From: Parasutterella muris
GTDB taxonomy: Bacteria > Pseudomonadota > Gammaproteobacteria > Burkholderiales > Burkholderiaceae_F
DNA length: 64,000 bases
Reading direction: 5' to 3'
Assembly (NCBI RefSeq): GCF_009767915.1
Contig: NZ_WSRP01000014.1
Span: forward strand, 1-64,000
How positions within the stretch are numbered: the first letter of the stretch is position 1; every line of letters begins with the position of its first letter. Both the position numbers and the translations under genes were made by a program. This document shows positions 57,094 through 60,164 of the stretch, in pieces. The notes under the pieces were generated by a model. That model was given only the letters and a program-made list of their open reading frames with translations. It was not told where the DNA came from and searched no databases.

Positions 57094-59109
57094 ATGAGCC
57101 TATCTATAGTGATGCCGCTTCACGTAATCAAGCGTGACGGTACCGTAAAAGACTTTGACATGAATAAGATTTCCGCGGCCCTGGCTAAAGCCGGCGCTGC
57201 GACCGGTGAATTTGATGACGCCACTGCCAACCGGATCACGCATGTTGAAGTGATGGAAAGGCTCAAACAGTACACAACACCGACCATTGAGCAGATTCAG
57301 GACGCGGTGGAAAACGCACTTTTTGATACGGGTTACCGTAAGACGCTGCGTGCTTATATTGTTTACCGCGAACAGCGTGCAAAAGCCCGCGACGCCCGCC
57401 GCAGTCTCGTTGATGTGGAAAGCTCCATGAACGAATATCTGCAGCAGCTTGACTGGCGCGTCAATGCGAACGCCAATCAGGGCTATTCTCTGGGCGGTCT
57501 GATTCTGAACGTTTCCGGTAAGGTTGTTGCCAACTATTGGCTCAGTTACGTTTATCCGAAAGAAGTCGGTCAGGCGCATCGTGAAGCTGATATTCATATT
57601 CATGATTTGGACATGCTTTCCGGCTACTGTGCCGGCTGGTCGCTAAAGACACTGCTCAACGAAGGTCTTAACGGTGTTCCCGGTAAAGTGGAAGCGGGCG
57701 CTCCGAAGCATTTGACCAGTGCGATCGGCCAGATCGTCAACTTCCTCGGCACAATGCAGAACGAATGGGCCGGAGCTCAGGCGTTCAGCTCCTTTGACAC
57801 GTATCTTGCTCCGTTCGTCCGTGTGGACAACCTGAGCTACAAGGAAGTTCGTCAGTGCATTCAGGAACTCATTTACAACCTGAACGTTCCGAGCCGCTGG
57901 GGCACACAGACGCCGTTTACCAATCTCACATTCGACTGGGTCTGCCCGGAAGATTTGAGAGAACAGCACCCTCTCATCGGCGGAGAAGAAGCCGACTTCA
58001 CATACGGTGAACTTCAGGAAGAAATGGCGATGATCAACCGCGCCTACATTGAAGTGATGCTTGAAGGCGACGCAAAGGGCCGCGTGTTCACATTCCCGAT
58101 CCCGACTTACAACATGACGCCGGATTTTGATTGGGACAGCCCCAACGCGCGTCTGCTTTTCAGTATGACGGCCCGCTACGGTCTTCCGTACTTCCAGAAC
58201 TTCATCAATTCGGAACTGAAGCCGAATATGATTCGTTCCATGTGCTGCCGTCTGCAGCTTGACCTCCGCGAACTTCTTAAACGCGGCAACGGCTTATTCG
58301 GTTCAGCCGAACAGACCGGCTCTCTCGGAGTTGTCACGATTAACTGCGCTCGTTTAGGTTACGTGTTCGCGCAGGACGAAGAAGGTCTTTTCAAGCGTCT
58401 TGATTTTCTTCTTGACTTAGCCCGCAACAGCCTTGAAATCAAGCGCAAGGTTATTCAGAGACACATGGATCAGGGGCTCTTCCCGTATACAAGACGTTAT
58501 CTCGGAACGCTGCGCAATCATTTCTCGACGATCGGTGTCAACGGTATGAATGAAATGATCCGCAACTTCACACAGGATAAGGAAGACATCACAACGGAAG
58601 CGGGTCACGATTTTGCAGCGCGTGTACTTGACCATATCCGTGAAAAGATGGTCATGTTCCAGGAAGAAACCGGCCATATGTATAATCTTGAAGCAACACC
58701 AGCCGAGGGCACGACTTATCGTTTTGCCAAGGAAGACAAGAAGCGCTTCCCCAAGATCCTTCAGGCAGGCACGCCGGATCATCCCTACTATACCAACAGC
58801 TCTCAGCTGCCGGTAAGCTACACGGACGATCCGTTCGAAGCGCTCGAAATGCAGGAAGATTTGCAGAAGAAGTACACTGGCGGTACAGTGCTTCACCTTT
58901 ACATGAACGAAGCGATTTCGAGTCCCGAGCTCTGCAGCGATATCGTTCGCCGCGCGCTGACGAATTTCCGTCTTCCGTACATTACGATTACGCCGACCTT
59001 CTCGGTATGTCCGAAACACGGCTATATCCCGGGCAACCATGAGTTCTGTCCGAAGTGCGACGCCGAACTGATCGCAAAGAAGAAGCAGGAAATGGCCCAG
59101 GCCTCTTAA
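57094..59109 (+). CDS. nrdD: Class III (anaerobic) ribonucleoside-triphosphate reductase, catalytic chain without its glycyl-radical domain
   Basis: 671 residues. Reduces ribonucleotides to deoxyribonucleotides without oxygen. An ATP-cone fills residues 1-95 (HVIKRDGTVKDFDMNKI). The barrel has C179 (SGYCAGWSLK) and C384/C385 (MIRSMCCRLQ), which correspond to the active-site cysteines. A zinc-ribbon-like end has C639, H642, C652 and C655 (CPKHG and CPKC). In usual NrdD proteins the glycyl-radical loop (RVxGY) follows this; here the protein stops 16 residues after the zinc motif. The missing part is encoded by the next gene. CGGAG lies before ATG. Confidence 0.93.
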   Translation: MSLSIVMPLHVIKRDGTVKDFDMNKISAALAKAGAATGEFDDATANRITHVEVMERLKQYTTPTIEQIQDAVENALFDTGYRKTLRAYIVYREQRAKARDARRSLVDVESSMNEYLQQLDWRVNANANQGYSLGGLILNVSGKVVANYWLSYVYPKEVGQAHREADIHIHDLDMLSGYCAGWSLKTLLNEGLNGVPGKVEAGAPKHLTSAIGQIVNFLGTMQNEWAGAQAFSSFDTYLAPFVRVDNLSYKEVRQCIQELIYNLNVPSRWGTQTPFTNLTFDWVCPEDLREQHPLIGGEEADFTYGELQEEMAMINRAYIEVMLEGDAKGRVFTFPIPTYNMTPDFDWDSPNARLLFSMTARYGLPYFQNFINSELKPNMIRSMCCRLQLDLRELLKRGNGLFGSAEQTGSLGVVTINCARLGYVFAQDEEGLFKRLDFLLDLARNSLEIKRKVIQRHMDQGLFPYTRRYLGTLRNHFSTIGVNGMNEMIRNFTQDKEDITTEAGHDFAARVLDHIREKMVMFQEETGHMYNLEATPAEGTTYRFAKEDKKRFPKILQAGTPDHPYYTNSSQLPVSYTDDPFEALEMQEDLQKKYTGGTVLHLYMNEAISSPELCSDIVRRALTNFRLPYITITPTFSVCPKHGYIPGNHEFCPKCDAELIAKKKQEMAQAS

Positions 59110-59144
59110 TACACAGATTTATTGACTTTGACAGGAGCAGCAAA

Positions 59145-59324
59145 ATGGATGAAAGAGCAAAAGAACAGGAAATCACACTGAAAGACGAAGAACGCACAAA
59201 ATGCGAAATCTGGACACGCGTGATGGGTTATCACCGTCCTACATCTTCCTTCAACATTGGCAAGCAGGGCGAATTCGCCGAACGCAAGTACTTTGTTGAA
59301 AGCAAGTGCGGCTGTGGTAAGTAA
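59145..59324 (+). CDS. Separate glycyl-radical domain of class III ribonucleotide reductase
   Basis: 59 residues. It carries the C-terminal motif of NrdD: RVMGYHRPTSSFN (25-37), with the presumed radical glycine G28, then IGKQGEFAERKYF. Cysteines are at 20, 55 and 57. It starts 35 bases after the nrdD stop in a different frame, and AGGAG (59133-59137) lies seven bases before ATG 59145, so it is its own gene, not readthrough. Together with NrdD it makes up a normal-length enzyme (671 + 59). An intrinsic terminator and nrdG follow. Presumably the peptide docks onto NrdD and NrdG forms the radical on it. Confidence 0.88.
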   Translation: MDERAKEQEITLKDEERTKCEIWTRVMGYHRPTSSFNIGKQGEFAERKYFVESKCGCGK

Positions 59325-59350
59325 TCCTTAACCACTTGTCGTTCAGTACG

Positions 59351-59378
59351 AAGCCTCCGCATGATCGGAGGCTTTTTT
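59351..59378 (+). terminator. Intrinsic terminator between the glycyl-radical gene and nrdG
   Basis: GCCTCCG (59353-59359) pairs with CGGAGGC (59366-59372) around a 6-base loop, then T6. nrdG begins 12 bases later, so its expression from the nrdD promoter must depend on readthrough. Confidence 0.88.
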
Positions 59379-59390
59379 AAAGGCCAGAAG

Positions 59391-60164
59391 ATGTCAGAAA
59401 AAAAGAGGGAAATCATCGAAATTGAGGAAGTCAGCAGCAAACCGGCTGAAGCGTTAGTCGTCGGCGGACTGGTCCGCTTCACAACGATTGATTTTCCCGG
59501 AAGCCTGGCGGCTGTCGCATTTATTCAGGGCTGTCCCTGGCGTTGCGTCTACTGTCAGAACAAAGAACTTCAAAGTCGTCGGCCAGACGCAGAGACCGAT
59601 CAGGTGAGCTGGGCTTACATTGAGCGGTTTCTTTCGCGCCGAAAAGGGCTGATTGACGGTTTTGTGTTCAGCGGGGGAGAGCCCTGTGTTGATCCCGCGC
59701 TCGCTGACGCGGTGAAGAGGGTCAAAGCACTCGGCTATAAAGTCGGACTGCACACCGGTGGGATGTATCCGGCGCGCCTAGCAGAGATTCTCCCGTATTT
59801 GGACTGGGTCGGCCTTGACATCAAAGCGCCTCTGTCCGAAGAAGAGACCTATGACAGAGTTGTCGGAAGAAAAGGTTCGGCGCAGAAAGTCAGAAAATCA
59901 CTTTCCCTGTTGCTTGCTTCCGGAGTCGCTCTGGAGACACGCACGACAGCGCATCCTGATTATCTCAGTGAAGCACAGATCGTCAAACTTGTGAAGGAAT
60001 TGAAGGAGGCCGGCGTGCGCACATTTGCGCTTCAGATTTATCGCCAGCCGAGAGAGCTTCCCGAGGAGGAAGTGTTGGAGCGCGTCGGCGCGCACTATCC
60101 GAATCCGCAGGCTCTGGATGAGCTGAAGGCGCTTTATCCCGAATTTATTCTCAGGCGTCCGTAG
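59391..60164 (+). CDS. nrdG: Anaerobic ribonucleotide reductase activating protein (radical SAM)
   Basis: 257 residues. Radical-SAM enzyme that makes the glycyl radical. The cluster motif is CPWRCVYC (C48, C52, C55) preceded by DFPGSLAAVAFIQG, and FSGGEPCVDP is the SAM-binding motif. It has the longer form (NrdG2-like) compared with E. coli NrdG (154). The start is ATG 59391; the in-frame ATG at 59361 lies within the terminator before it. Its SD is weak. The radical glycine it activates is on the separate 59-residue protein. Confidence 0.88.
   Translation: MSEKKREIIEIEEVSSKPAEALVVGGLVRFTTIDFPGSLAAVAFIQGCPWRCVYCQNKELQSRRPDAETDQVSWAYIERFLSRRKGLIDGFVFSGGEPCVDPALADAVKRVKALGYKVGLHTGGMYPARLAEILPYLDWVGLDIKAPLSEEETYDRVVGRKGSAQKVRKSLSLLLASGVALETRTTAHPDYLSEAQIVKLVKELKEAGVRTFALQIYRQPRELPEEEVLERVGAHYPNPQALDELKALYPEFILRRP

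Follow-up and report, generated by a model that had tools for sequence, protein, structure and literature searches.

We analyzed a 64,000-nucleotide stretch of the Parasutterella muris genome (assembly GCF_009767915.1, contig NZ_WSRP01000014.1, positions 1 to 64,000; hereafter the window), which carries genes for a class III (anaerobic) ribonucleotide reductase (RNR). At this locus, the large protein NrdD and the glycyl-radical site are encoded by two separate open reading frames (ORFs), followed by the gene of an NrdG-type activase. The features are as follows.

NrdD core and separate glycyl-radical protein in the window

57094..59109, + strand: NrdD core of 671 residues with ATP-cone, barrel, finger loop and zinc ribbon and without a glycyl-radical site (PF13597 positions 2-529 of 562, 599 bits; NF006126, 1150 bits)
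57121..57381, + strand: ATP-cone, residues 10-96 (PF03477, 78 bits, cut-off 25.8)
58243..58248, + strand: finger-loop cysteines C384-C385 in SMCCRL (sequence)
59008..59058, + strand: zinc-ribbon motif C639-x2-H642 ... C652-x2-C655 (sequence only)
59133..59137, + strand: Shine-Dalgarno sequence AGGAG of the small ORF, seven bases ahead of ATG (sequence)
59145..59324, + strand: separate glycyl-radical protein of 59 residues (PF13597 positions 530-562, 31.6 bits, cut-off 26.2)
59226..59228, + strand: codon of Gly28, the expected radical site, in RVMGY (sequence; unchanged across all 104 loci, themselves picked by a motif containing it)
59350..59375, + strand: stable hairpin with a T run after it, in the spacer separating the small gene from nrdG (-16.4 kcal/mol, z -4.7)
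59391..60164, + strand: NrdG-type activase, NrdG2 (TIGR02495, 188.7 bits, cut-off 131.15)

The initial annotation had claimed that NrdD ends 16 residues past its zinc motif without the radical loop. This was borne out by the sequence of ORF 57094-59109: the core stops 16 residues past CPKC, and the glycyl-radical site is absent from its chain. The loop had also been assigned, with G28, to an ORF of its own at 59145-59324, in a different reading frame, 35 bases behind the core and with AGGAG seven bases ahead of its start, and all of these details were correct. The sequence of the small protein is MDERAKEQEITLKDEERTKCEIWTRVMGYHRPTSSFNIGKQGEFAERKYFVESKCGCGK. The two ORFs jointly cover the Pfam NRDD profile end to end (positions 2-529 and 530-562), indicating that the match of the small ORF is not due to chance. 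Upstream, the frame of the small ORF stays open as far as a GTG at 59055; we took the ATG at 59145 as the start because of the ribosome binding site and because relatives start at a similar place. C384-C385 was assumed to be the thiyl-radical site, as established for class III RNRs. The components of a class III RNR, namely the PF13597 core, finger-loop cysteines, zinc ligands, RVxGY glycine and NrdG, were all found in the window.

The hairpin between the small gene and nrdG (59350-59375) was absent from the hits of our consensus terminator scan, and the number of hits in the consensus promoter and terminator scan was similar to that in shuffled sequences. The hairpin and its T run could decouple the expression of nrdG from that of the core.

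Conservation and origin of the split

The initial annotation had argued for two proteins rather than a sequencing error, and comparison with related genomes upheld this view. The same split was present in all three genomes searched in the genus, in 38 of the 43 NrdD-bearing genomes of the family and in several classes and phyla (Beta-, Gamma- and Alphaproteobacteria and Omnitrophota), with a random relative frame of the two ORFs. The split, whose conservation had been left to be checked, is widespread.

In the family search, 43 of 67 genomes matched PF13597 and were sorted by hand. Several of the 38 split genomes also carried a fused NrdD of another subfamily, and in one of them (G014) the core and the small gene lay at the ends of two contigs. 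The remaining five comprised two genomes (G009 and G010) whose only NrdD is of another subfamily and is split at the same position, one with fragments (G016) and two with only fused NrdD of other subfamilies (G022 and G050). In an order-wide sample, 47 of 160 genomes matched NrdD, and 40 of the 47 were split. Only fused NrdD was found in six, of which four belonged to other subfamilies (G270, G316, G393 and G401; 23-24% identity to the window core) and two to this clade (G343 and G383). The last genome, G411, showed the small gene alone with an nrdG-like gene on a short contig. A phylum-wide sample gave 14 matching genomes out of 150, six split (including the window genome) and eight fused. 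In the initial annotation, a single fused ORF in close relatives had been named as a finding that would speak against the split. No such fusion of this clade was found within the family; in another family of the order, the two genomes G343 and G383 did carry it.

We then scanned GTDB contigs with 18 small proteins as queries; at least 585 stretches were obtained, 583 were confirmed and the best 80 were kept. Together with 23 family loci, 8 further loci and 3 genus loci, these formed a set of 114. The loci were found by motif and at least five contigs were present twice (e.g., L028 and L042); therefore, the counts lack independence. In 104 of the 114 loci, a core and a small ORF lay within 1.5 kb of each other. 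Five loci had no core (L049, L062, L063, L112 and L113), and in the other five a core was present but such a small ORF was missing from its vicinity (L019, L021, L027, L038 and L039). Over the 104 loci, the relative frame of the small ORF was distributed 28/30/46, independent of the choice of start. Since all three relative frames are used, frameshifting or readthrough cannot be the rule. The gap between core and small ORF ranged from -41 to +260 in 101 of the 104 loci and was longer in L070, L073 and L129, of which L070 and L129 have a disturbed core. The small ORF started with ATG in 103 of 104 loci and had a Shine-Dalgarno match of at least four bases in 102 of 104, both of which are favored by the score used for choosing the start.

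Some relatives have both ORFs in one frame. In 12 further split genomes of the order sample with core and small domain in a common frame, a stop intervened in all 12 (G013 and G018 were read separately). The apparent fusions L057, L068 and L110 and several other long open frames were likewise rejected, as a stop separates the core from the small ORF.

Across 35 codons of the small gene, the ratio of non-synonymous to synonymous changes (pN/pS) was 0.17 in 153 pairs from 18 family loci; over these codons, the congener L012 differed from the window by 13 synonymous changes and 1 non-synonymous change. No variation was seen among the 104 loci at Arg -11, at Cys -8 or in the residues surrounding the glycine. 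As a guess, Cys -8 may help to tie the two chains together, perhaps at the zinc. The arrangement is also seen on annotated plasmids. Plasmid pHG1 of Cupriavidus necator H16 encodes a core of 676 residues, then an ORF of 66 residues annotated nrdD (H16_RS32675), then an activase. An annotated plasmid of Paracoccus ferrooxidans has the same split, and its small ORF is labelled 'hypothetical protein'. The small gene is thus already annotated as nrdD in C. necator; as far as we have seen, the gene is known and its function seems to be unexplained.

The break separates the zinc ribbon from the radical strand. In the fused outgroup L146, CATCGEETEVYSRVVGYFRPV occurs in a single chain; split cores end shortly past CPKCD, and small proteins carry ER-x-x-C ahead of E[VI]WTRVMGYHRP. 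A tree was built from 49 chosen cores, and its 38 split cores formed one group with a Shimodaira-Hasegawa-like approximate likelihood ratio test (SH-aLRT) support of 97, or 85 without the prophage row. When G343 and G383 were added, with only L146 and L151 as the outgroup, split and re-fused cores stood together and apart with a support of 100. The G343 and G383 cores, which come from one genus and are 73% identical to the window core, fell among the betaproteobacterial split cores, the surrounding forks having supports of 84 to 88. In these two genomes the zinc motif continues into CEIWTRVMGYHRP, and the fused chain of G383 retains RQPC, as expected if the ancestor was split. One fission followed by re-fusion in one genus would be the simplest reading of these trees, which were built quickly and contain long branches.

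The second split type took a separate position in the trees. L132, L133 and L134 (from G009 and G010) belong to a different NrdD subfamily with a frame of 772 residues, split independently at the same place. Their radical ORF contains RRITGYLVG and starts right after the core stop; a further radical ORF of this kind is present on a small contig of G010.

Unlinked, additional and phage-borne small genes

In five genomes (G036, G046, G049, G274 and G319), the only small gene of this type was unlinked to the core. The core is followed by nrdG in G036, G046 and G049, directly so in the last two. The small gene of G046 and G049 is found at another place, behind a helicase gene that resembles dinG by eye, and that of G036 adjoins sbcD. 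The core of G319 is on one contig and its small gene and nrdG are on another, and the core of G274 is about 9 kb from the small gene, which adjoins an nrdG. A fused NrdD of another subfamily is also present in G036, G046 and G049 and is absent from G274 and G319. We excluded from this count G414 and G014, with core and small gene at contig ends, and G327, in which the two are about 2.2 kb apart. The five genomes show that the two halves can be encoded independently.

Additional small genes were found in several settings. A second small gene adjoins a phosphoribosyltransferase gene in L135, L136 and L062; L063 and L139 were left out because the position of the second copy was ambiguous. Small genes adjoin phage lysozyme or GH19 endolysin genes in L014, L112, L143, L144 and L248, those of L014, L143 and L144 being second copies. 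No NrdD core was found by PF13597 search in the Succinivibrio metagenome-assembled genome of L112. Magnetospirillum fulvum (L049:5659-9272) has an extra small gene just upstream of nrdA and nrdB, in addition to a normal split NrdD. In the order sample, an additional small gene was present in only three of the 40 split genomes (G000, G339 and G366).

Relatives of the small protein were then collected from IMG/VR. Of 200 relatives, 80 were kept: 10 lacked the exact motif, 17 were cut upstream, 52 had no core upstream and one (L161) had a core. Among the last 53, 44 records were searched whole; 43 contained the radical domain only and one (G216) also contained a core. The 43 radical-only records are 5.7 to 108 kb long and include some near-duplicates, and IMG/VR records may be fragments. 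The scan requires the motif, so variants were missed. When the NrdG2 model was run against 29 of the 44 records, no match was obtained in 28 stand-alone ones, and weak radical S-adenosylmethionine (SAM) matches were obtained in G216. Ten neighbouring proteins from six phage records were compared with PHROGs; eight matched and seven had a phage function (tape measure, tail, tail fibre, virion (weak), head-tail adaptor, DNA polymerase and clamp loader). The best PHROG for the phage small proteins themselves was phrog_4132, 'unknown function'. The 66 phage ORFs were 42-87 residues long, and Cys -8 was missing in 5 of the 66. A tblastn search of annotated phage records with the small protein at E 1e-5 gave no match in 50,697 records.

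G216 is a prophage resembling one in the window's own genome. The latter, a prophage-like region (L011; G000:C135:26000-38000, reverse), carries a second split NrdD with its own radical ORF. Its core is interrupted at the finger-loop cysteine by an intein-like insert of about 141 residues, and L161 in IMG/VR is a near-identical element. On the reverse strand of L011 (10998-12002), what seems to be the start of a second intein-like insert is seen in a phosphoesterase-like prophage protein. The region also has two radical SAM proteins (SPASM-like by eye).

The initial annotation had put forward a diffusible radical part that could be replaced when damaged; the breadth of the split and the existence of phage copies formed no part of it. 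Unlinked genes and stand-alone phage copies lend this idea indirect support, and it appears plausible from the sequences. We further considered that the radical subunit may be an exchangeable, mobile cofactor protein. Phages of split-NrdD bacteria would carry only the small subunit and plug it into the host core in anoxic infection, the host NrdG charging it, which would keep or raise the supply of deoxynucleoside triphosphates (dNTPs). We regard this proposal as evenly balanced between right and wrong. If true, it would make this the first ribonucleotide reductase with a spare-part or takeover system, as far as we have searched.

Probable two-chain enzyme, alternative explanations and known systems

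The sequence anatomy and conservation of the two chains are directly observed, and so is the fact that core and radical gene are genetically separable. From these, the locus very probably encodes a class III RNR of two polypeptides, in which the radical subunit acts in trans; we infer that the chains assemble physically, are activated by NrdG and are catalytically competent. The large NrdD core would provide nucleotide binding and the finger-loop cysteines, and the 59-residue protein would provide the glycine. With the radical installed on Gly28 by NrdG, the small protein would dock its hairpin in the core barrel beside C384/C385, so that a thiyl radical is formed and reduction starts. A radical subunit damaged by oxygen might be replaced without a new core, as it is a separate and cheap protein.

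A fused form exists in the relatives G343 and G383, and parts that are fused in a relative as a rule function together. In addition, the window genome showed one class I-like NrdA (by eye) in a PF02867 search and no PF01228 protein at E 0.001; therefore, the split enzyme is likely to be the source of dNTPs in the absence of oxygen. According to the excerpted text of a genome paper (PMC2864759), NrdDG is essential for complete denitrification in C. necator H16, and since the C. necator NrdD is split, the split enzyme evidently works in the cell, as far as that text goes. The same excerpts give NrdDG of C. metallidurans as Rmet_5137 and Rmet_5139 and nowhere mention Rmet_5138, which would be the small radical gene.

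We also built a tethered AlphaFold model, in which the L075 core and its small protein were joined by reading the stop codon as Gln, in two runs. The best model of the second run (56 rows) had a mean predicted local distance difference test score (pLDDT) of 76.7, and the other four had 67.8 to 71.2. This model matched P. copri NrdD (8p2s_B) with Z 30.7 and 3.1 Å over 551 residues (94-736 on 85-735) and T4 NrdD (1h7b) with Z 29.4 and 2.6 Å over 472 residues (128-719 on 26-587). G712 of the model would correspond to P. copri G711 and to T4 G580, which we take to be the radical glycine of T4 NrdD; these positions are near the ends of the alignments and the correspondence, for which the models give moderate support, assumes no gap there. 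A profile of the small protein gave no match among PDB sequences at E up to 1.

Several observations weigh against a two-chain enzyme acting in trans. The fused form in G343 and G383 implies that separation is not required, and the essentiality in C. necator is second-hand, being taken from a paper that cites an older study. In the first AlphaFold run the radical region had a pLDDT of about 30 and was not placed; even in the best model of the second run its pLDDT was 52-78 (block means of residues 691-740), and AlphaFold knows NrdD folds. The model is also tethered through a stop read as Gln and is not a true complex.

A single fused protein might in principle arise from a sequencing error, a programmed frameshift or stop readthrough, an idea prompted by the adjacent ORFs of the window and by the relatives with both ORFs in one frame and a stop between them. 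The frame distribution over the 104 loci, the spread of gaps and the unlinked copies make it highly improbable; as a general rule, this explanation is ruled out by conservation, random frame and unlinked copies. Rejoining of the halves by trans-splicing of a split intein is still harder to credit. The core tail and the leader of the small protein are short, variable and, by eye, too short for an intein half, no intein motifs were seen by eye at the break, and the intein-like insert that was seen is elsewhere, in the prophage core.

The remaining alternatives concern why the chains are separate. By analogy with YfiD and T4 Y06I for pyruvate formate-lyase, the small protein may be an exchangeable spare part, lost on cleavage by oxygen and topped up by extra chromosomal, prophage or phage copies. 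Second stand-alone copies in split genomes (L135, L136 and L062; L014, L143 and L144; M. fulvum) and stand-alone phage copies favor this, and the excerpts of a paper by the YfiD authors (PMC8683613) consider that further glycyl radical enzymes may have spare parts, those validated being just two, both of pyruvate formate-lyase. However, since the core itself lacks a radical domain, the small protein would be needed even when nothing is damaged, unlike YfiD, and additional small genes are rare in the order sample. We consider the spare-part role possible, if a little short of probable. Neutral gene fission would instead have left an enzyme permanently in two subunits, which neither exchange nor confer any particular advantage. 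The grouping of split cores, the closeness of the genes in 104 of 114 loci and the re-fusion in one genus agree with it, whereas the stand-alone phage copies, the unlinked genes and the independent second fission in another subfamily (L132 and L133) suggest that separability is used. Neutral fission is likewise a tentative explanation that we would not quite call likely.

Enzymes treated as complete may lack the radical site on paper, because the radical domain is separate in 40 of the 47 order-sample genomes and in C. necator H16. A detachable radical subunit would make two ideas testable: spare-part repair beyond pyruvate formate-lyase, and phage takeover of anaerobic dNTP synthesis by one very small gene. 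In the part of the open-licence full-text literature that we searched, we found no account of a class III RNR whose radical site is on a protein of its own, and an earlier account is possible. The review PMC4009431, in its excerpted text, gives class III RNR as NrdD plus NrdG and lists a split for class II only.

The enzyme shares with single-chain NrdD (E. coli, phage T4, T. maritima and P. copri) the ATP-cone (where present), barrel, finger-loop cysteines, zinc ribbon, RVxGY glycine and NrdG; in contrast, its glycyl-radical site is on a second protein. The closest fused NrdD outside the clade, among those fetched, has 48-49% core identity, compared with 73% for the fused form inside it. YfiD/GrcA and T4 Y06I are likewise small free-standing glycyl-radical proteins serving a large enzyme, pyruvate formate-lyase, and have phage versions too. 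However, the small protein here belongs to the NrdD family PF13597 and not to PF01228, and it is expected to be obligatory as its partner core lacks a radical domain. Membership in YfiD/GrcA was rejected, as the small protein matches PF13597 with no PF01228 match listed up to E 10 and there is no radical domain in the core for it to back up. In the split class II enzyme NrdJa/NrdJb of Pseudomonas aeruginosa, an RNR catalytic chain is also encoded by two consecutive genes, with a different class and a different domain. Finally, phage nrdD in pieces, as described in the excerpts of PMC3653736, mostly reflects introns or inteins, and in phage phiAS4 a fragmentation of unknown cause, whereas here one domain is a separate conserved gene.
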